Assembly (NCBI RefSeq): GCF_003634755.1
Contig: NZ_RBXA01000001.1
Span: 62,001-126,000, forward strand
Source: Flavobacterium limicola
GTDB lineage: Bacteria; Bacteroidota; Bacteroidia; Flavobacteriales; Flavobacteriaceae
DNA: 64,000 nucleotides
Direction of reading: 5' to 3'
The notes below the pieces were generated by a model that was not told where the DNA came from, did no database searches, and saw only the letters and a list, made by a program, of their open reading frames with translations. The position numbers were made by a program, and so were the translations under genes. How positions within the stretch are numbered: position 1 is the first letter of the stretch; every line of letters begins with the position of its first letter. Positions 1 through 64,000 of the stretch are shown here, piece by piece.

Positions 1-714
1 AGCAGTCATATCTCCAAACCAGAAATTTTTCTTTCCTGATTTAAGTTTGATATTCATTGCAATATTATCCTGATTGTTCTCTACTCCTTTTAGGATCGAA
101 TTTTCGTTGTAATTGCGCAACACTTGGATTTTGTCAATGGCATCAGCTGGAATATTTTTGACTCCTAACTTCGTATCACCATCAAAAAAGTCTTTTCCTT
201 CTACCATTAATTTAGTTACTCGTTTACCTTCAACTTCAATTTCACCGTCGGCGTTTACCTCAACTCCTGGTAATTTTTTCAGAATATCTTCTAGTTTTCT
301 TTCTGTGCCGGATTTAAAAGAATCCGCATTATAAACAATGGTATCTCCTTTTATCGAAACTGGCATTTCACGAACAATTTCAACTCCGTCGAGTTCAATT
401 CCCCCTTCTTCAAGCGCAATGTTTTTAATGCTATTTTCTGAAGTTGTAGTGATTTCCAACTCTTTATTCTGCATTCCCAAATAACTGATTTTGATATTAT
501 ACGCTGTATTTGGCTTTAGATTAAGAAGAAATTTTCCTTTGTCATTTGTTATGGCATAGGCATCCATTGCCTTTGTAGCTTTATTTACCGCCATTACATT
601 GGCCATTTCAAGACCTGCAGCTTTCGAATTGGTTATAAGACCTTCTAATTTAACGGATTGAGAAAAGGAAATTGAGGTAATAAAGAAAAATAAAAAAAGG
701 TATTGGTTTTTCAT
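1..714 (-). CDS. TonB-receptor-like outer membrane protein (5' part only)
   Basis: The reading frame is open from the ATG at 714 down to the window edge (238 codons), so only the N-terminus is present. Residues 1-20 form a signal peptide (hydrophobic stretch ending ITSISFSQ). A CarboxypepD_reg-like beta-sandwich follows at about residues 21-100, then a plug-like region with ILKKLPGVEV and the acidic segment KDFFDGDTK. This is the usual layout of Bacteroidota outer membrane beta-barrel proteins related to TonB-dependent receptors. The two GLPGLI proteins upstream on the same strand are typical neighbours of this class. Family placement is fairly safe; the ligand is unknown and the barrel lies outside the window. 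Confidence 0.8.
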   Translation of the reverse strand, partial: MKNQYLFLFFFITSISFSQSVKLEGLITNSKAAGLEMANVMAVNKATKAMDAYAITNDKGKFLLNLKPNTAYNIKISYLGMQNKELEITTTSENSIKNIALEEGGIELDGVEIVREMPVSIKGDTIVYNADSFKSGTERKLEDILKKLPGVEVNADGEIEVEGKRVTKLMVEGKDFFDGDTKLGVKNIPADAIDKIQVLRNYNENSILKGVENNQDNIAMNIKLKSGKKNFWFGDMTA

Positions 715-55724: not shown

Positions 55725-55797
55725 GGTACCTTAGCTCAGATGGTAGAGCAATGGACTGAAAATCCATGTGTCCCTGGTTCGATCCCTGGAGGTACCA
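55725..55797 (+). tRNA. tRNA-Phe (anticodon GAA)
   Basis: A 73-base cloverleaf: acceptor GGTACCT/AGGTACC, D arm GCTC/GAGC, anticodon stem ATGGA/TCCAT with GAA at 55758-55760, variable GTGTC, T arm CCTGG-TTCGATC-CCTGG, discriminator A. The CCA end is not encoded. The T stem has a central T-T mismatch, with the other four pairs intact. It has its own strong promoter and terminator. Confidence 0.95.
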
Positions 55798-55798
55798 C

Positions 55799-55828: not shown

Positions 55829-56163
55829 GTTTTTATACCTTTCTCTAAAATATCCTTCATCTTCTTAAATAAAAATTCACACCAATACGAAAGAATGTTT
55901 CTATTTTTAAACGACTATTAAATTCCCACACTCGTTTAGCGAAATCAAAAAAATACAGCTTAACTCTCCATATATGTTGAAAATTATTCCATCAGACAAC
56001 GATTGGTTTTAAAAATCAAACTCTTTCACAAAGCAATTTAATTTACTAAAAATGCACCAATAATTCAACAAAAATAAAGGGTTCGTATTTTTTTTCTAAT
56101 TTTTTTGCGAAATTCAAATAACAATAGTTGCTAATTTATTATATTTATGCAAAATTTATATAT
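55829..56163. other. intergenic stretch without a recognised gene
   Basis: About 335 AT-rich bases between the tRNA terminator and the InsA-like gene. No convincing reading frame, RNA gene, repeat or terminal inverted repeat was seen. The last 60 bases must hold the promoter of the InsA-like gene, but no full TAnnTTTG match was found. Confidence 0.5.
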
Positions 56164-56583
56164 ATGGAGATTTTAACCTGCCCGAAATGCCAAGGTAACC
56201 AAATCACAAAAAGCGGCATAATCAACAGTAAACAAAGGTACTTATGTAAAAAATGTAATTATTTTTTTACAGTCAATAAAATCGGGAAAAAGATAGATGA
56301 TTATTATGTTACCAAGGCATTACAGCTCTACCTTGAAGGCTTAAGCTTTCGTGAAATAGAGCGAATTATAGGTGTTTCCCATGTCACTGTAAGCAACTGG
56401 GTCAAAGCCTTTAATATAAAAAAACCATCGCATGCCAATTACCATCCTACTTATAAGATTTTAAGCCATTTAGAACTTATTGAATACCTCAAAAACAAAG
56501 AACTTCTTTCCGGAGCAGGAATGATTATAACAGAGCTTGGAGACAAATTTATGCTCATAAAATGGGAAAGATTCAAAGATTAG
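56164..56583 (+). CDS. InsA-like zinc-finger/HTH protein, probably a domesticated regulator
   Basis: A 139-residue protein. An N-terminal zinc finger has Cys6-x2-Cys9 and Cys28-x2-Cys31, as in the IS1 InsA protein and IS1595-type N-terminal domains. An InsA-type helix-turn-helix follows at about 61-80 (SFREIERIIGVSHVTVSNWV). The last about 50 residues (from HPTYKILSHLEL) are not InsA-like as far as I can tell. No InsB catalytic frame and no terminal inverted repeats were seen nearby. It precedes a transporter locus on the same strand. DNA binding is a firm inference; a role as regulator of that locus is a guess. The ATG at 56164 is chosen over an upstream alternative start 12 codons earlier. 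Confidence 0.8.
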   Translation: MEILTCPKCQGNQITKSGIINSKQRYLCKKCNYFFTVNKIGKKIDDYYVTKALQLYLEGLSFREIERIIGVSHVTVSNWVKAFNIKKPSHANYHPTYKILSHLELIEYLKNKELLSGAGMIITELGDKFMLIKWERFKD

Positions 56584-56684
56584 CTATATACTTTACACAT
56601 AAATATATCTAAATTTTTTTTTAGAATAAAATAATAGAATTTGGCACTTTATTAACCAACCATTTAATAACCAAAATTTTATTT

Positions 56685-58064
56685 ATGAAAAAAATATTTT
56701 TTATAGCGGCAGTACTCTTACTATCACTAAAAAGTTTTTCACAAGGCTCCACTGATTACGGCAGCGGAATGAAATTCAATTTGAACGAAGATGGTTCAAA
56801 ATACATGCGATTTATTGCATGGAACCAAATATGGTTTCGTTCCAGCCAAATGAACCCTGGAACAATGATTGGAAATGAAGCGGCAACAACCGGAACCGAC
56901 ATTGGAAACAGACGTTTGCGTTTTCTGACCTACTCTCAATTATCTAAAAGATACATGATTGTAACGCACTTTGGAATCAACAATCAAACCTTTACTAATG
57001 GTGGTGCAGCGGGAACTTCTGGAACTGGCGGATACGGTGCCGGAAAAAAACCAGGTTTGTTTTTTCACGATGCTTGGAACGAATACGCATTAGTTTTACC
57101 TGAAAAAGACAAAAAATTCAGCCTATCGCTTGGTGGAGGACTGCATTATTACATGGGATTATCGAGAGCAACAATGGCTTCTACACTGAACTTTTTAACA
57201 ATTGACGCTCCTATCTTCAACTGGCCTTTAATAGAAAATTCAGATCAGTTTGCCAGACAAATGGGTCTATTTGCTAAAGGAAAATATGGTAAATTAGAAT
57301 ACCGTTTGAGTTACAACAAACCTTACGCCACAAACTTAGTTCCCACTGACGCAACTGTAGCAGATAACGCAGTAGCAGTTGACAACAGCGGAAATACGAA
57401 ATGGTCAAAAGCCGGTTATTTCGAATATCAATTTTTAGATCAGGAAGCTAATTTATTGCCTTACAAAGTAGGAAGCTATTTAGGAACTAAAAAAGTATTC
57501 AATATTGGCGCTGGTTTTTATACGGCACCTGACGCAACCAAATCTTCGGTTAACAGTACTATCAGCAAACACAACATCAATCTTTTTGCAGCAGATGTTT
57601 TTCTTGATTTACCTATTGGAAAAAAAGAAAACAAAATGGCTGTAACCGGATACAGTGTTTTCTACGATTATGATTTCGGTCCAAATTATTTGCGTAACGT
57701 AGCCATTATGAATATTGGATCCGTTGACCCAAACTTTACAGGAAGCAGAGCTTTGGCGGGACCTGGAAATGCACAAGCTACTATTGGATCAGGAAATATC
57801 TGGTACACACAAGCGGGAATTTTATTACCAAGCAAAGTAGACAAACCTAAAGTACGCGTACAGCCTTTTGGAGCTTTTACTTACAAAAGCTTTGACGCTT
57901 TAGATAAGTCAAGTACTCAATTTGATCTTGGAACCAACTTTTTCTTGGATGGACAACATGCTAAAATAACCGCGCAATATTCAACAAGACCCGTTTACAC
58001 GACTCCATCTAACATCTCAGGATCAAAAGGGGAATTCGTAGTACAACTTCAAATCTATCTATAA
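56685..58064 (+). CDS. outer membrane porin
   Basis: A 459-residue protein with a signal peptide (ending SFSQG) and a barrel-like mature region, related to porins of the phosphate-selective OprO/P-like type in Bacteroidota. Features are FIAWNQIWFRSSQM, NRRLRFLTYSQLSKRYMIVTHFGINNQTF and the C-terminal strand GEFVVQLQIYL. It is followed 23 bases later by the MHS transporter gene, so outer and inner membrane steps of uptake are probably cotranscribed. The solute is unknown. Confidence 0.85.
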   Translation: MKKIFFIAAVLLLSLKSFSQGSTDYGSGMKFNLNEDGSKYMRFIAWNQIWFRSSQMNPGTMIGNEAATTGTDIGNRRLRFLTYSQLSKRYMIVTHFGINNQTFTNGGAAGTSGTGGYGAGKKPGLFFHDAWNEYALVLPEKDKKFSLSLGGGLHYYMGLSRATMASTLNFLTIDAPIFNWPLIENSDQFARQMGLFAKGKYGKLEYRLSYNKPYATNLVPTDATVADNAVAVDNSGNTKWSKAGYFEYQFLDQEANLLPYKVGSYLGTKKVFNIGAGFYTAPDATKSSVNSTISKHNINLFAADVFLDLPIGKKENKMAVTGYSVFYDYDFGPNYLRNVAIMNIGSVDPNFTGSRALAGPGNAQATIGSGNIWYTQAGILLPSKVDKPKVRVQPFGAFTYKSFDALDKSSTQFDLGTNFFLDGQHAKITAQYSTRPVYTTPSNISGSKGEFVVQLQIYL

Positions 58065-58087: not shown

Positions 58088-59623
58088 ATGAGTACTAAAT
58101 CAACAAAAGGAATTTGGAAAGTCATTTCCGCATCCTCAATGGGTACAATGATCGAATGGTATGATTTCTATATCTTTGGAAGTTTAGCCGTTGTAATTTC
58201 AACAAAATTTTTTCCTTCAGATAATCCTACAGCAGCCTTCTTGTCGACTTTGGCAACATTCGCAGCCGGATTCGTAGTTCGTCCTTTCGGAGCCCTTTTC
58301 TTTGGAAGATTAGGCGATTTAATTGGAAGAAAATACACGTTCATGGTGACGTTGTTATTAATGGGTGGTGCAACCTTCCTGATTGGATGTATCCCGAGTT
58401 ATGAAACTATTGGATTCATGGCGCCTTTATTAGTATTAATTCTTCGTTTACTTCAAGGTCTTGCTTTGGGTGGCGAATATGGCGGAGCTGCAACGTATGT
58501 GGCAGAGCACGCTCCCGTCGGACAAAGAGGATATTGGACTTCTTGGATTCAAACTACTGCAACGGTGGGTTTATTCATCTCTTTGATGGTAATTTTAGCC
58601 ACGAGAAACATCCTTACACCAGAGCAATTTGACGAATGGGGATGGAGAGTTCCGTTCTGGGTTTCTATCGTAATGGTAGGGGTTTCGTATTTGATTCGTA
58701 AAAACATGGATGAATCTCCTGTTTTTGCTAAAGCAAAAAGCGAAGGAAAAACAAGTACCAATCCTTTAAAGGAAAGTTTTGGAAACCGTTACAACTTGAA
58801 ATTTGTATTATTGGCTTTATTTGGAGCAACCATGGGACAAGGAGTTGTATGGTATACCGGTCAATTTTACGCGATGAGTTTCTTAAAAACGGTAATGTCT
58901 ATCGACTCCTCTCAAGTAGACACACTACTAGGAATTGCATTAATTCTTGGAACACCATTCTTCATCTTTTTTGGTTGGTTGAGTGATAAAGTAGGTAGAA
59001 AATACATTATGATGGGTGGAATGTTATTGGCTATTTTATTATACAGACCAATTTACAAACAAATGTACGAAACCACATCGGTGAAAAACAAAACCGAAAT
59101 GGTCGAAAAAACTACGGTACTTGCTGAATTGAAAGAAAATAAAAAGCAAACCATGGATTCTATCTATACGACCAACAAAGAGTATGTGGATGGAACTACT
59201 TTTCAAGAAATAAAAACCGTACATTTAGAAAACGGAGCAGTAATAGTGGTGGATGGTAAACCAAAAGTGGACACCAAAACCACTATTAAAATTAACTCTA
59301 GTGACAATTGGGCTTTGATATTTCTAGTATTTGTACAAGTGATATTTGTAACGATGGTTTACGGACCTATCGCAGCGTTCTTAGTTGAAATGTTCCCGGT
59401 AAAAATTAGATATACCTCGATGTCATTGCCATACCACGTAGGAAATGGAATTTTTGGAGGGCTACTTCCAGCTATTTCAACCTATTTTGTAACCAATGCA
59501 AAAGACTTAGGCCATCCGGAATTTTACCTTGAAGGACTTTGGTATCCAATTGTTATTGCTGCAGTCAGTTTTGTAGTTGGAATGGTTTACATTAAAAATA
59601 AAGATAAAAACGCTCACGTATAA
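58088..59623 (+). CDS. MHS-type MFS transporter with an extra loop
   Basis: A 511-residue transporter of the metabolite:H+ symporter type within the major facilitator superfamily. MFS signatures are GRLGDLIGRKYTF at about 73-85 and GWLSDKVGRKY at 296-306; also GTMIEWYDFYIFGSL typical of MHS proteins. Twelve helices are expected. Between helices 9 and 10 lies an 80-residue hydrophilic insert (about 326-407), which should face the periplasm. Related transporters carry proline, citrate, alpha-ketoglutarate or other carboxylates; context favours a carboxylate. Confidence 0.92.
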   Translation: MSTKSTKGIWKVISASSMGTMIEWYDFYIFGSLAVVISTKFFPSDNPTAAFLSTLATFAAGFVVRPFGALFFGRLGDLIGRKYTFMVTLLLMGGATFLIGCIPSYETIGFMAPLLVLILRLLQGLALGGEYGGAATYVAEHAPVGQRGYWTSWIQTTATVGLFISLMVILATRNILTPEQFDEWGWRVPFWVSIVMVGVSYLIRKNMDESPVFAKAKSEGKTSTNPLKESFGNRYNLKFVLLALFGATMGQGVVWYTGQFYAMSFLKTVMSIDSSQVDTLLGIALILGTPFFIFFGWLSDKVGRKYIMMGGMLLAILLYRPIYKQMYETTSVKNKTEMVEKTTVLAELKENKKQTMDSIYTTNKEYVDGTTFQEIKTVHLENGAVIVVDGKPKVDTKTTIKINSSDNWALIFLVFVQVIFVTMVYGPIAAFLVEMFPVKIRYTSMSLPYHVGNGIFGGLLPAISTYFVTNAKDLGHPEFYLEGLWYPIVIAAVSFVVGMVYIKNKDKNAHV

Positions 59624-59634
59624 AAAACACAGCT

Positions 59635-59859
59635 ATGAATCAGATAAAAAGAGTTTTAGGATTAGTTTGGATTGCTTGTGCTGCTGCTGCAGCGTATTTC
59701 TGCATCTTCACTTTTGGATTACCAAAATTTATGTCAGGAAAACAAGAGGATCTAGTATTCGGGATTATCATCCTTTTCATACTTACACCATTAATCGTTT
59801 TAGGATTAGGAACTTTTGGTTACTATGCCTTAATGGGAGATTATGACGAAAAAAAATAA
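59635..59859 (+). CDS. small membrane protein (DUF6814-like)
   Basis: A 74-residue protein with two membrane segments (about 5-25 and 40-64) and an acidic C-terminus (GDYDEKK). It lies 11 bases after the MHS transporter gene. Its size and topology match the small DUF6814-type companions of MHS transporters in Bacteroidota, from memory. It may stabilise the transporter. Confidence 0.78.
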   Translation: MNQIKRVLGLVWIACAAAAAYFCIFTFGLPKFMSGKQEDLVFGIIILFILTPLIVLGLGTFGYYALMGDYDEKK

Positions 59860-59991: not shown

Positions 59992-60186
59992 ATGAAAAAG
60001 AGACATGAACAAAAGTTGGTTATTCTTTCAATGCTAATGCTATTAGCTTTGAACGTGCCACTCTTGTTGTTATTTGACAGTTCGCAACCACTTTTTGGAT
60101 TCCCAATTATCTACATTTATATCTTCTCGGCATGGCTGTTTTCAATTGCCATATCGTACCTAATCATAAAAAGATATTATGAATAG
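59992..60186 (+). CDS. small membrane subunit preceding the symporter-kinase
   Basis: A 64-residue protein with two membrane helices (about 9-27 and 36-58) separated by LFDSSQPLFGFP, ending in a basic tail (KRYYE). Position and size recall the small subunits (DUF485, DUF4212 or DUF3311 types) that precede sodium/solute symporters such as ActP. It overlaps the symporter-kinase gene by eight bases, so the two are translationally coupled. Family membership is inferred. Confidence 0.75.
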   Translation: MKKRHEQKLVILSMLMLLALNVPLLLLFDSSQPLFGFPIIYIYIFSAWLFSIAISYLIIKRYYE

Positions 60187-62884
60187 CATTGGACTCTTGT
60201 TAATATTAGTGCTTTATTTGTCGATTCTTTTTTACATTGCCTATTGGTCCGAAAAAAGAAGCCATTCTAAATGGACAAATAATCCCTATATCTATTCCTT
60301 TTCACTAGCCGTATATTGTACCGCCTGGACCTATTACGGAAGTATTGGTGTTGCTGCAGAATCCGGTTTGAGTTATTTACCCATTTATTTAGGACCCATA
60401 TTAATTATCCCAACGTGGATGATTATTCTCAAGAAAATTATCCGAATTTCGAGAGTAAATAAAATTTCCAGTATTGCAGATTTTATTTCTTTACGATACG
60501 GAAACAGTAGATTTCTGGGAGCTTTAGTAACTACGATTTGCATTGTTGGTATTTTACCCTATATATCTTTACAATTAAAATCAATTTCAGACACTTTTCA
60601 TATTGTCACCAAAACGCAGGCAAGTTCTAATATTTTCACTGACACCACAACCTATGTTTGCATAGCGTTGGCTTTATTTGCTTCCTATTATGGTACCAAA
60701 TATGTAGATGCTTCCGAGAAAAGACGCGGAATCGTAACCGCAGTGGCCATGGAATCTATCCTGAAGTTAGTTTTCTTTTTGATTGTGGGGATTTATGTTA
60801 CCTATTTTGTTTTTGACGGTTTTGATGATATTTATCAAAAAGCGGCTGTCCTTAAAGATTTCGACAAAAAAAATACAATTGGTGGTATCACAAACGGAAT
60901 CAACTGGTTCTTCCTTTGTATTCTATCGATGTTTGCTATTTTCCTTTTACCAAGACAATTTCAAACTGCGATTGTAGAGAACAATAAAGAAACTCACATT
61001 AGAACAGCGATTTGGCTTTTCCCGTTGTACCTGCTACTTTTCAACCTTTTTGTTTTTCCAATTGCTTGGGGCGGCAATATTCTTTTTGAAGGAAAAGGGC
61101 ATAATTCAGATACGTATTCCTTATTGATCCCACAGTTTTTTGACAATAATGTATTGACAGTAATGGTTTTTCTGGGCGGATTTTCGGCAGCGATTTCAAT
61201 GATTATTGTATCTTCAATTGCACTCGCCACGATGCTGAGCAACAACTTACTGATTCCGTATGGCTTCATTGGCTCACTAGAAAATTCTTCACAGAAAAAA
61301 AACAGTAAACGGATTGTAAACAGCCGAAAAATAGGAATTTTTTCGCTTATCATTTTGGCGTATGCCATCTATAGAATATTCATTTTGGACTATTCTTTGG
61401 TTTCCATCGGGTTGGTTTCCTTTGTCGTTATAGCACAACTGGCTCCTTCCTTTTTTGGTGCATTATTCTGGAAAAGAGGTTCTAAATATGGTGCGGTTAC
61501 CGGAATTATTCTTGGGTTTTTAACCTGTTTTTATACGCTGCTAATTCCGTACGCTATTGGAATCACAAAATCAACCAGTCTATTTATTCAGGAAGGACCT
61601 TGGGGAATTGAATTGCTAAAGCCTTTTCAACTATTTGGATTGGATTATTTAGAACCCATTCCACATGCTGTTTTTTGGAGCTTATTAATTAATATTCTGA
61701 GTTATGCTGCGGTTTCTGTAAGTTTCAAAGGCAATTACAGAGAACGCAATTATGCCGAAATGTTTGTGGATATTGACAAATACATCACCAATCACGAAAA
61801 CGCTTTTGTATGGAAAGGAACTGCGTATATTTCTGATATTCAAAAAGTGTTGCAACGATTTCTTGGCGAAGAAAGAACCAAGCGCGCTTTGACTATTTTT
61901 AATTTAAAATATAATATTGACAAAGACATTACCACTGCCGATGCCCGATTTATAAAATTTGCCGAGAATTTATTGACGGGACATATTGGTACGGCTTCCG
62001 CCAAAATATTAATATCGAGTGTGGTCAAAGAAGACAAAATTAGTTTACCCGAAGTATTGCGAATTTTGGAAGAATCCAAAGAAAACATCATCATCAACAA
62101 GAAGTTGACGGATACTTCAAATGAATTAAAAAAAATATCAGAACAACTCAAAAATGCGAATCAGGAATTAGTCAACAAAGACATTCAAAAAGATGAATTT
62201 CTAGACACCGTTACCCATGAATTGAGAACTCCGATAACCGCAATTCGTGCCGCAAGCGAAATCCTTCATGATGATGACGACATTCCCGAAGAGCTGAGAA
62301 AACAGTTTTTGCAAAACATCATTTCCGAGTCGGACCGATTGAATCGTCTGATTGATAAAATTCTGGATTTAGAAAAATTTGAAACTGGCAAACAAAAGAT
62401 TTATTTGTCTAAAAACAACATCACAAGAACGATAAAAAACACGTTGGATTCCCTCCAACAATTAGTAAAAAATAAAAAAATAACTATTGAATTTAAGGAT
62501 GCATCCAAAGAAATAAAAGCTTTTTATGATGAAGAAAGAATCGTTCAGGTCATCCATAATTTAGTTTCAAATGCCATAAAATTCTGTTCGGAAACAGACG
62601 GAAAAATAGTGATTTCCATTGCTGAAAATAAAGACAATATCGAAGTCAAAATACACAACAACGGCAAGGGAATTAAAAAAGAAGATTTTGAAGCCATTTT
62701 TGATAAATTCTATCAATCTCGAAACCAAAACGTAAAAAAACCCATAGGAAGTGGACTGGGTTTAGCCATTTGTAAACAAATAATAGAACATCATAAAGGT
62801 AAAATTTGGGCCGAAGATAATGTGGTTGAAGGAGCCACTCTCATCTTCACATTACCCAATTATAATACAGCAGAAAATAGTTAA
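60179..62884 (+). CDS. sodium/solute symporter-histidine kinase fusion (CrbS-like)
   Basis: A 901-residue protein. An N-terminal sodium/solute symporter module of about 13 helices occupies roughly 1-530, with family blocks TAWTYYGSIGVAAESG, ISSIADFISLRYG, ILPYISLQLKSIS and LGGFSAAISMIIVSSIALATM. After a linker and a coiled coil (about 640-660) comes HisKA with phospho-acceptor His680 in THELRTP, and a HATPase_c domain with NLVSNAIKFC, GKGIKKEDFEAIFDKFYQ and GSGLGLAICKQIIEHH. This architecture matches CrbS and MxtR, which sense or transport acetate-like solutes and control acs genes. The receiver protein follows 3 bases after the stop. Confidence 0.94.
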   Translation: MNSIGLLLILVLYLSILFYIAYWSEKRSHSKWTNNPYIYSFSLAVYCTAWTYYGSIGVAAESGLSYLPIYLGPILIIPTWMIILKKIIRISRVNKISSIADFISLRYGNSRFLGALVTTICIVGILPYISLQLKSISDTFHIVTKTQASSNIFTDTTTYVCIALALFASYYGTKYVDASEKRRGIVTAVAMESILKLVFFLIVGIYVTYFVFDGFDDIYQKAAVLKDFDKKNTIGGITNGINWFFLCILSMFAIFLLPRQFQTAIVENNKETHIRTAIWLFPLYLLLFNLFVFPIAWGGNILFEGKGHNSDTYSLLIPQFFDNNVLTVMVFLGGFSAAISMIIVSSIALATMLSNNLLIPYGFIGSLENSSQKKNSKRIVNSRKIGIFSLIILAYAIYRIFILDYSLVSIGLVSFVVIAQLAPSFFGALFWKRGSKYGAVTGIILGFLTCFYTLLIPYAIGITKSTSLFIQEGPWGIELLKPFQLFGLDYLEPIPHAVFWSLLINILSYAAVSVSFKGNYRERNYAEMFVDIDKYITNHENAFVWKGTAYISDIQKVLQRFLGEERTKRALTIFNLKYNIDKDITTADARFIKFAENLLTGHIGTASAKILISSVVKEDKISLPEVLRILEESKENIIINKKLTDTSNELKKISEQLKNANQELVNKDIQKDEFLDTVTHELRTPITAIRAASEILHDDDDIPEELRKQFLQNIISESDRLNRLIDKILDLEKFETGKQKIYLSKNNITRTIKNTLDSLQQLVKNKKITIEFKDASKEIKAFYDEERIVQVIHNLVSNAIKFCSETDGKIVISIAENKDNIEVKIHNNGKGIKKEDFEAIFDKFYQSRNQNVKKPIGSGLGLAICKQIIEHHKGKIWAEDNVVEGATLIFTLPNYNTAENS

Positions 62885-62887
62885 AAA

Positions 62888-63250
62888 ATGAAAAAGATTT
62901 TAATTGTAGATGACGAACCAAACATTGTAATGTCACTGGAATATACTTTCAAAAAGAACAATTTTGAAGTTTTCATAGCGCGCGACGGCCAGGAAGCACT
63001 GGATATTTTACAAAAACAACTTCCGGATGTCATAATTCTGGATGTCATGATGCCTATGGTGGATGGTTTTGCCACATTGGAACAAATAAAAAAAGACGAA
63101 CGACTGCGGCATTGCAAGGTCATTTTCCTTTCAGCAAAAAACAAGGAAAAAGATATTGAAAAAGGACTTTCATTAGGTGCTAATTTATATGTTGTGAAGC
63201 CCTTTTCAGTTAAAAAATTAGTCGATCAAGTTCATGAATTAATTCAATAA
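62888..63250 (+). CDS. single-domain response regulator (receiver only)
   Basis: A 120-residue protein made of one receiver domain. The acidic pocket is Asp8-Asp9, the phospho-acceptor is Asp52 in VIILDVMMP, and Lys104 is in VVKPFS. No DNA-binding or enzymatic output domain is present, unlike CrbR, which carries a LuxR-type HTH. It is in a tight run after the symporter-kinase gene and before the acyl-CoA synthetase. How it alters gene expression is unclear: it may act through another protein. Confidence 0.95.
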   Translation: MKKILIVDDEPNIVMSLEYTFKKNNFEVFIARDGQEALDILQKQLPDVIILDVMMPMVDGFATLEQIKKDERLRHCKVIFLSAKNKEKDIEKGLSLGANLYVVKPFSVKKLVDQVHELIQ

Positions 63251-63266
63251 GAAACAAATTCAACAC

Positions 63267-64000
63267 AATGGAATACAAGGAAATTTATGAGGACAGCATT
63301 GCGCATCCAGAAAAATTCTGGGCAGAACAAGCTGATGCAATTGAGTGGTACAATAAACCGGAGACAATTTTATCGAAAGATGAAAATGGATATCCGCTTT
63401 GGTACAAAGATGGAGAATTGAACATTTGTTATCTGGCGTTAGACAAGCACATTCAGGATGGCTGTGGAGATCAGGTCGCTTTTATTTATGATTCGCCGGT
63501 GACACAAACCGTAAAAAAATACACTTTTTCGGAAGTAAAAACCGAAGTCGCAAAACTCGCGGGAGGCATGCAATCATTGGGATTAAAAAAAGGCGACACC
63601 GCCATAATTTACATGCCCATGATTCCTCAAACTGCTTTCGCGATGTTGGCTTGCGCGAGAATTGGCGTGATCCACTCGGTTGTTTTTGGGGGTTTTGCAC
63701 CACATGAATTGGCTATCAGAATCGACGATTGCAAACCCAGAGCGATTATAACGGCATCATCCGGAATAGAGATTGACCGATTAATTGCTTACAAACCTTT
63801 GGTGGATGAAGCCATTGCACTTGCTTCACACCGACCGAAAAAAGTAATCGTTTTCAATAGAAAATTAGGCGCCAGAATTCCGTTTAAGAAATATGATGTA
63901 GATTACGATGCGTTGGTTTACGGCTCCGAAGAAACGTCTTGTGTTCCTGTTAATTCGAATCATCCGCTGTATATTTTGTACACATCCGGAACTACGGGAA
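63267..64000 (+). CDS. PrpE-like short-chain acyl-CoA synthetase (5' part)
   Basis: The frame starts with MEYKEIYEDSIAHPEKFWAEQ and runs off the window (244 complete codons). It is an ANL-superfamily ligase forming acyl-CoA from a short-chain acid, ATP and CoA. ACAS_N is at the N-terminus; then VIYMPMIPQ-like AIIYMPMIPQ, ACARIGVIHSVVFGGFAPHELAIRIDD and the beginning of the P-loop YTSGTTG. The block RIDDCKPRAIITASSGIE and YKPLVDEAI look more like propionate-CoA ligase (PrpE/ACSS3) than E. coli Acs. Its place after the sensor pair suggests the substrate that is sensed. Confidence 0.9.

Follow-up and report, generated by a model that had tools for sequence, protein, structure and literature searches.

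An IS1 InsA-like protein as a probable transcription factor of an acetate uptake and activation locus in the class Bacteroidia

Introduction

Why should a gene resembling the DNA-binding part of an insertion sequence transposase stand alone at the head of a set of carboxylate transport and sensing genes? The question is raised by the window analysed here, the whole stretch of 64,000 nucleotides of Flavobacterium limicola DNA (contig NZ_RBXA01000001.1, positions 62,001 to 126,000). A preliminary description of this sequence had proposed that the gene encodes a domesticated regulator. That proposal is now strongly supported: the adjacency and the upstream motif that it predicted were found, and neither of the two observations it named against itself was made. 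Since the InsA-like protein is encoded by a single, vertically inherited copy at the head of an acetate operon in many Bacteroidia and has conserved sites of its own there, it has very probably been captured as a gene switch and no longer acts as a jumping gene.

The InsA-like gene is the sole DNA-binding gene of a co-oriented locus

As initially described, the gene heads a carboxylate transport and sensing locus on one strand. It is followed in the same orientation by genes for a porin, an MHS transporter, a DUF6814 protein, a small membrane ORF, an SLC5-type sensor histidine kinase (HK), a receiver-only response regulator (RR) and an acyl-CoA synthetase, which we take to be prpE-like (Table 1). 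Beyond the window, 14 bp after the synthetase gene, lies acsA (G000:C1, about 127181).

When HK was scanned against Pfam, the HisKA and HATPase domains scored over their cut-offs, and the SSF domain, although most of it is covered, scored 17.7 bits, under its cut-off of 22.8. The protein can therefore be called an SLC5 symporter fused to a histidine kinase with respect to its kinase part, its symporter part being sub-threshold. This general Pfam scan returned no match to a STAC linker domain. RR consists of a receiver domain alone, without a LuxR-type HTH, and within the window the locus has no DNA-binding gene besides the InsA-like one. A tRNA-Phe gene is located at window positions 55725-55798, about 330 bp upstream of the left operator described below, and is found there in many, not all, relatives.

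Table 1. Features of the locus, in window coordinates unless residues are given.
Feature	Position	Strand	Remarks
Left operator, two tandem units (56129-56144 and 56148-56163)	56129..56163	+	period 19 bp, ends at start codon
InsA-like gene	56164..56583	+	139 aa ORF
InsA-like protein domains	residues ~6-36, ~46-82, ~93-136		zinc ribbon, HTH, C-terminal beta-alpha-beta-beta tail
Right operator, inverted degenerate copy	56585..56607	-	directly after stop codon, upstream of porin
Conserved TAGAATTTG, putative porin promoter	56635..56643	+	50 bp after right-operator TATA
Outer-membrane porin	56685..58064	+	459 aa
MHS-type metabolite:H+ symporter (MFS)	58088..59623	+	ActP-like or SatP-like in its place in relatives
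DUF6814 small protein	59635..59859	+	
Small membrane ORF beside HK	59992..60186	+	conserved, without Pfam match
SLC5/SSF-type sensor histidine kinase (CrbS-like)	60179..62884	+	901 aa
Receiver-only response regulator	62888..63250	+	120 aa
Acyl-CoA synthetase	63268..64000	+	runs past window end

The protein is homologous to the DNA-binding portion of IS1 transposases

The 139-residue protein combines a CxxC...CxxC zinc ribbon with an HTH. It matches the NCBIfam IS1/IS1595 zinc domain (NF050000) with 35.9 bits against a cut-off of 28, whereas the full IS1 transposase model (NF033558), aligned over residues 6-113, reaches 77.5 bits against a cut-off of 100, and Pfam Zn_ribbon_InsA (PF03811) reaches 19.7 bits, below its gathering cut-off of 26.1. 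Thus, the solitary ORF does keep the zinc finger and HTH reported for it. The absence of an InsB transposase is likewise borne out: the InsA-like ORF contains no InsB or catalytic DDE domain, its frame stops at residue 139, and the next gene is the porin. By comparison, the frames of the IS1 relatives in Bacteroidota that we read mostly extend over about 190-246 residues. The aspartate of the IS1 VDEM segment aligns with L103 of the InsA-like protein, in a region where the alignment is weak.

The protein had also been credited with its own C-terminus of roughly 50 residues. An own tail does exist, but similarity to IS1 transposases reaches to about residue 113-115, so that only the last 25 residues or so are clearly its own. 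Among orthologs, the tail sequence GAGxIITELGDKFMLIKWERF is nearly invariant. An AlphaFold2 model of moderate confidence (mean pLDDT 78.3, pTM 0.44) comprises the ribbon, three HTH helices and the beta-alpha-beta-beta tail. By fold search, the HTH resembles the DNA-binding domains of GcrA, resolvase, IstA and Tc3 (Z 5.8-6.9 over 40-48 residues), and the tail gave no convincing match; Foldseek returned nothing at E<=0.001.

In its own 3.3 Mb genome the gene is present once, unlike an IS1 family transposase in multiple copies, the sole other matches having E values of 0.16 and 0.46; the many scattered copies with flanking repeats that would mark a mobile element are thus not seen. Its median dN/dS is 0.03 (n=26), with dS near saturation (median 1.65), and as judged from these sequences the gene is under purifying selection. 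Pairwise distances between InsA-like proteins correlate with those between the kinases (r 0.72, n=73). Among the 56 orthologs of the genus, 55 can be aligned with almost the whole protein, at 66-100% identity, and the 56th (G145) aligns in two pieces; this split match (G145:C53) contains a stop and reflects apparent decay or an assembly error.

Solitary genes of related type were also encountered. In G813 the IS1 model matches 11 ORFs that are 130-161 residues long. The only one of them that was read (L266) is solitary and InsA-like but differs at its C-terminus; L269 (G919) represents another such type. At L238 (G537:C3:367300-369000), a regulator that we assume to be LacI-type carries an N-terminal IS1-type zinc ribbon, possibly a further case in which such a ribbon has been taken over by a transcription factor.

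The gene co-occurs with the sensor kinase and keeps its neighbourhood

Orthologs of the InsA-like protein and of HK (first 660 residues, E<=1e-60) were counted in samples of 150 genomes from the genus, including the own genome, 249 from the family and 395 from the phylum. Seven genus and two family genomes with only weak IS1-type matches were left out of the ortholog counts, and G537, G567 and G578 were set aside from that of the phylum sample. In the genus, 56 genomes have a strong InsA-like ortholog and 57 have HK: both are present in 56, neither in 93, and HK only in one (G031), where the match is partial and the draft assembly comprises about 590 contigs. The family sample yielded 24 strong InsA-like matches, including the own genome and a 42%-identical homolog in G213, and HK in 23 genomes; both occur in 23, and G213 has the InsA-like gene alone. 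The phylum sample yielded 29 apparent orthologs and 40 genomes with HK. Here both occur in 27 genomes, HK only in 13, all outside the class, and the InsA-like gene only in two (G553 and G672).

Where both genes occur, they are 0.9-4.5 kb apart. They share contig and strand in 55/56 genus genomes (the exception is due to split contigs), in 22/22 family genomes, own genome excluded, and in 23/23 new genomes of the phylum sample. Adjacency to porin/MHS or CrbS-like genes, the first check that had been suggested, therefore held across all three samples. More specifically, a porin, an MHS transporter or HK follows the InsA-like gene in 80/80 named loci, mostly Flavobacterium; HK is present in 76 of these, the remaining four being contigs of 3.6-5.1 kb. 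Among the 198 genomes of a class sample, 13 ortholog loci were read: 12 have an adjoining porin, one of them (L267) with a divergent acsA besides, and the G553 locus (L271) has an MHS transporter, identified by tblastn, instead. Upstream flanks are variable among the named loci. The transporter itself is exchanged across relatives while the InsA-like gene stays: in the window the slot is taken by MHS, in L065 by an SSF/ActP-like symporter and in L122 by a GPR1/FUN34/YaaH (SatP-like) protein.

The genomic context is thus anything but random, the gene occupying the same place across the sampled Bacteroidia. This bears on the idea of a recent IS remnant or non-autonomous element that came to lie near the operon by chance, which would account for the clear homology to IS1 transposases and for an imperfect inverted pair around the gene (see below). 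Single copy number, the same place across the class, purifying selection and the correlation with kinase distances rule out a recent copy or chance neighbour, an origin to which we attach next to no probability.

The HK match of G147:C18 is split and has several stops, from apparent decay or an assembly error. In L178, a 144-aa ORF, presumably related to IS200-type transposases, lies between HK and RR. In L245 and L248, from HK genomes without the InsA-like gene, a small HTH gene, which we take to be ArsR-like, lies just upstream of the HK region.

A tandem site abuts the start of the gene

Upstreams of InsA-like orthologs have in common a tandem unit of about TGCTAAATTAGTATAT with a 19-bp period, abutting the start codon in Flavobacterium and located farther upstream in distant families. 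The unit (at least 11/16 positions) is present in 129/131 distinct ortholog upstreams, with the 19-bp spacing in 125; the two upstreams without it belong to the distant G213 homolog (L055) and to an IS1 ORF (L165). The unit consensus, and likewise the regular expressions and -7 patterns used below, were composed after the sequences had been seen. Aligned to the window without gaps, the upstreams average 0.91 identity in -36..0, compared to 0.38-0.50 further upstream (n=78).

In its own genome the tandem pair is unique, even allowing 3 mismatches. With at most 1 mismatch, counted by reading the match list, it is found in 56/56 gene-bearing and 0/94 other genomes of the genus, an agreement that is partly trivial because the pair adjoins the gene. 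Allowing up to 3 mismatches gives 81/150 genus genomes, background included, with 10 for the reversed control. At L069, a second operator-like tandem lies about 4.2 kb upstream of the InsA-like gene; it precedes a second porin, from which no InsA-like ORF separates it, and is possibly a relic of duplication; G110 also has a second operator-like tandem.

Related sites precede the porin gene and some acsA genes

Contrary to the initial statement that no inverted repeats are visible, an imperfect 23-nt inverted pair (56140-56162 and 56585-56607), 78% complementary and kept in relatives, brackets the InsA-like gene, and it seems to be regulatory. The right member was missed by the position-weight matrix and was found by an inverted-repeat scan and post hoc regular expressions. 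TATANNNNTTTA occurs within 60 nt in 77/139 distinct downstreams, 69 times at one offset, compared to 1.6% of shuffles. Further on, TAGAATTTG resembles the flavobacterial -7 box TAnnTTTG with one extra base, and the right operator is 50-52 bp ahead of this -7-like box in 60/61 named loci having both.

Matrix sites of at least 15 bits were found before 15/66 acsA genes, all on the minus strand, at a chance rate of 0.33% per search window. A looser cut gives 18/66. Measured from the start of the site to a TAnnTTTAC-like box, the spacing is exactly 47 bp in 16 of the 18, although the acsA start may be anywhere from 77 to 119 away. Many siteless acsA genes closely follow an upstream synthetase gene. 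In L158, a divergent acsA is preceded by the left operator, which is minus-oriented relative to acsA.

Conserved sites are therefore found at several promoters: those of the InsA-like gene itself, of the porin and of some acsA genes. A motif shared upstream of 56164, 56685 and 59992 had been predicted; it is present before the first two, at 56129-56163 and 56585-56607, and was not found before HK. The matrix search found no site before HK, RR, MHS, ActP or SatP starts. Across 16 gene-bearing genomes, the 23-bp pattern has 33 other whole-genome sites (reversed control, 1), among them one located 158 bp upstream of sdhC (G012) and three, identical to each other, where an AcrB-like coding sequence begins. 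A wider regulon was rejected, these other matches being mostly single and unconvincing.

Could another factor bind these sites, or could they be promoter elements, the InsA-like protein having a different role? The assignment of the sites to this protein is made from sequence, the site is AT-rich, and TATATTTA inside the left operator resembles a -7 box. We nevertheless judge this unlikely, since the tandem pair is missing from the gene-less genomes of the genus and occurs nowhere else in its own genome, the site recurs at acsA with fixed geometry, and IS1 InsA, according to passages of PMC12428005, binds its own ends and represses its own promoter.

A predicted regulatory circuit

Taken together, these observations indicate that the InsA-like protein is probably a fixed, vertically inherited, single-copy transcription factor that arose from the DNA-binding portion of a transposase of the IS1 type and serves a locus for the uptake and activation of acetate (short-chain carboxylates) in the class Bacteroidia. 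The protein would bind TGCTAAATTAGTATAT-type sites. Because the left site overlaps the start of its own gene, the plus-oriented tandem copies there suggest autorepression, as by InsA at the IS1 promoter. Activation of porin and acsA is suggested by sites lying upstream in fixed phase, minus-oriented copies being placed about 47-52 bp upstream of -7-like boxes. If positioned by the F. psychrophilum -7 consensus (TAnnTTTG at -12 to -5 in the relevant passage of PMC9723704), the acsA site would lie near -59 to -44. The predicted logic resembles that of the parent element, in which InsA represses the promoter overlapping IRL and binds both IS1 ends, as stated in part of PMC12428005.

We also considered that a whole IS1-like module, the repressor together with its two terminal sites, was captured: the ends would have become operators of the operon, the left end over the repressor's own promoter and the inverted right end before the porin promoter; a site would have spread to acsA, and the receiver-only system would signal through the transposon repressor, which would stand in for a DNA-binding response regulator of the classical type. 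When the operator matrix, which derives solely from Bacteroidia, was applied to E. coli IS1, its best match was the left end (P 0.0045 relative to column-permuted matrices). Significance was not reached at the right end (0.33), nor was a clear operator-like end pair seen in ten IS1-like loci of Bacteroidia. This module origin is rather doubtful, and beyond it the operators were not accepted as IS ends, as the E. coli right end and the ten loci do not fit.

As for the signal, the SLC5 kinase may sense the substrate and phosphorylate the receiver-only RR, which would act through the InsA-like protein, a step of which we are less sure. That RR signals to this protein is plausible, with roughly even chances. 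The protein as DNA-binding partner of the receiver is consistent with its being the sole DNA-binding gene and with the near-constant co-occurrence with HK and RR. Counting against a partnership, 13 more distant genomes keep HK without the InsA-like gene. The idea that RR became receiver-only as a consequence of gaining the InsA-like gene found no support, because the five HK loci read in genomes without this gene (L188-L191 and L195) all have a receiver-only RR.

Somewhat less probably, the InsA-like protein alone, autoregulated, controls the acetate operon, its C-terminal tail perhaps being a ligand sensor, and HK and the receiver have other targets or work alongside it. The three genomes in which no HK was found weaken the kinase link, since the InsA-like gene persists there beside ActP and acsA (G213), MHS and acsA (G553) or porin and ActP (G672), and 13/40 HK genomes of the phylum sample do without it. 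Sole control is harder to reconcile with the near-perfect co-occurrence and adjacency with HK and RR in the genus and family samples, and the window locus offers a receiver-only RR no further gene for DNA binding.

Relation to known systems and significance

Like IS1 InsA, the InsA-like protein has a zinc ribbon and HTH, homologous to about residue 113, and its start-overlapping and inverted downstream sites have a counterpart in the binding of InsA to IRL, over the IS1 promoter, and to IRR (passages of PMC12428005). Unlike IS1 InsA, it lacks an InsB or catalytic domain, is single-copy and fixed by acetate genes, and has its own C-terminal tail. The CrbS/CrbR acetate system of Vibrio and Pseudomonas similarly associates an SLC5-type kinase with acetate activation and transport genes. 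CrbR is, however, a LuxR-family activator (as stated in part of PMC5715377), whereas the RR here is receiver-only and DNA binding is encoded solely by a separate InsA-like gene.

Domestication of mobile-element regulators is already known, and reuse of a mobile-element DNA-binding protein for host regulation is the theme of a review (PMC8987985), whose passages on co-opted examples name Xre and RHH factors, IS1 InsA and acetate being absent there. Our literature search, covering listings, abstract starts and some passages, found no description of the InsA-like protein. As far as these searches go, an acetate-gene regulator derived from IS1 InsA, with its own operator set, is undescribed.

If this interpretation is true, it would add a class-wide family of transcription factors, members of which automatic annotation likely files as transposase fragments, the best NCBIfam match of the protein studied here being the IS1 transposase model. 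It would also put a name to a DNA site by which the acetate regulons of Bacteroidia can be mapped, and would provide a concrete test case of how receiver-only response regulators reach DNA.
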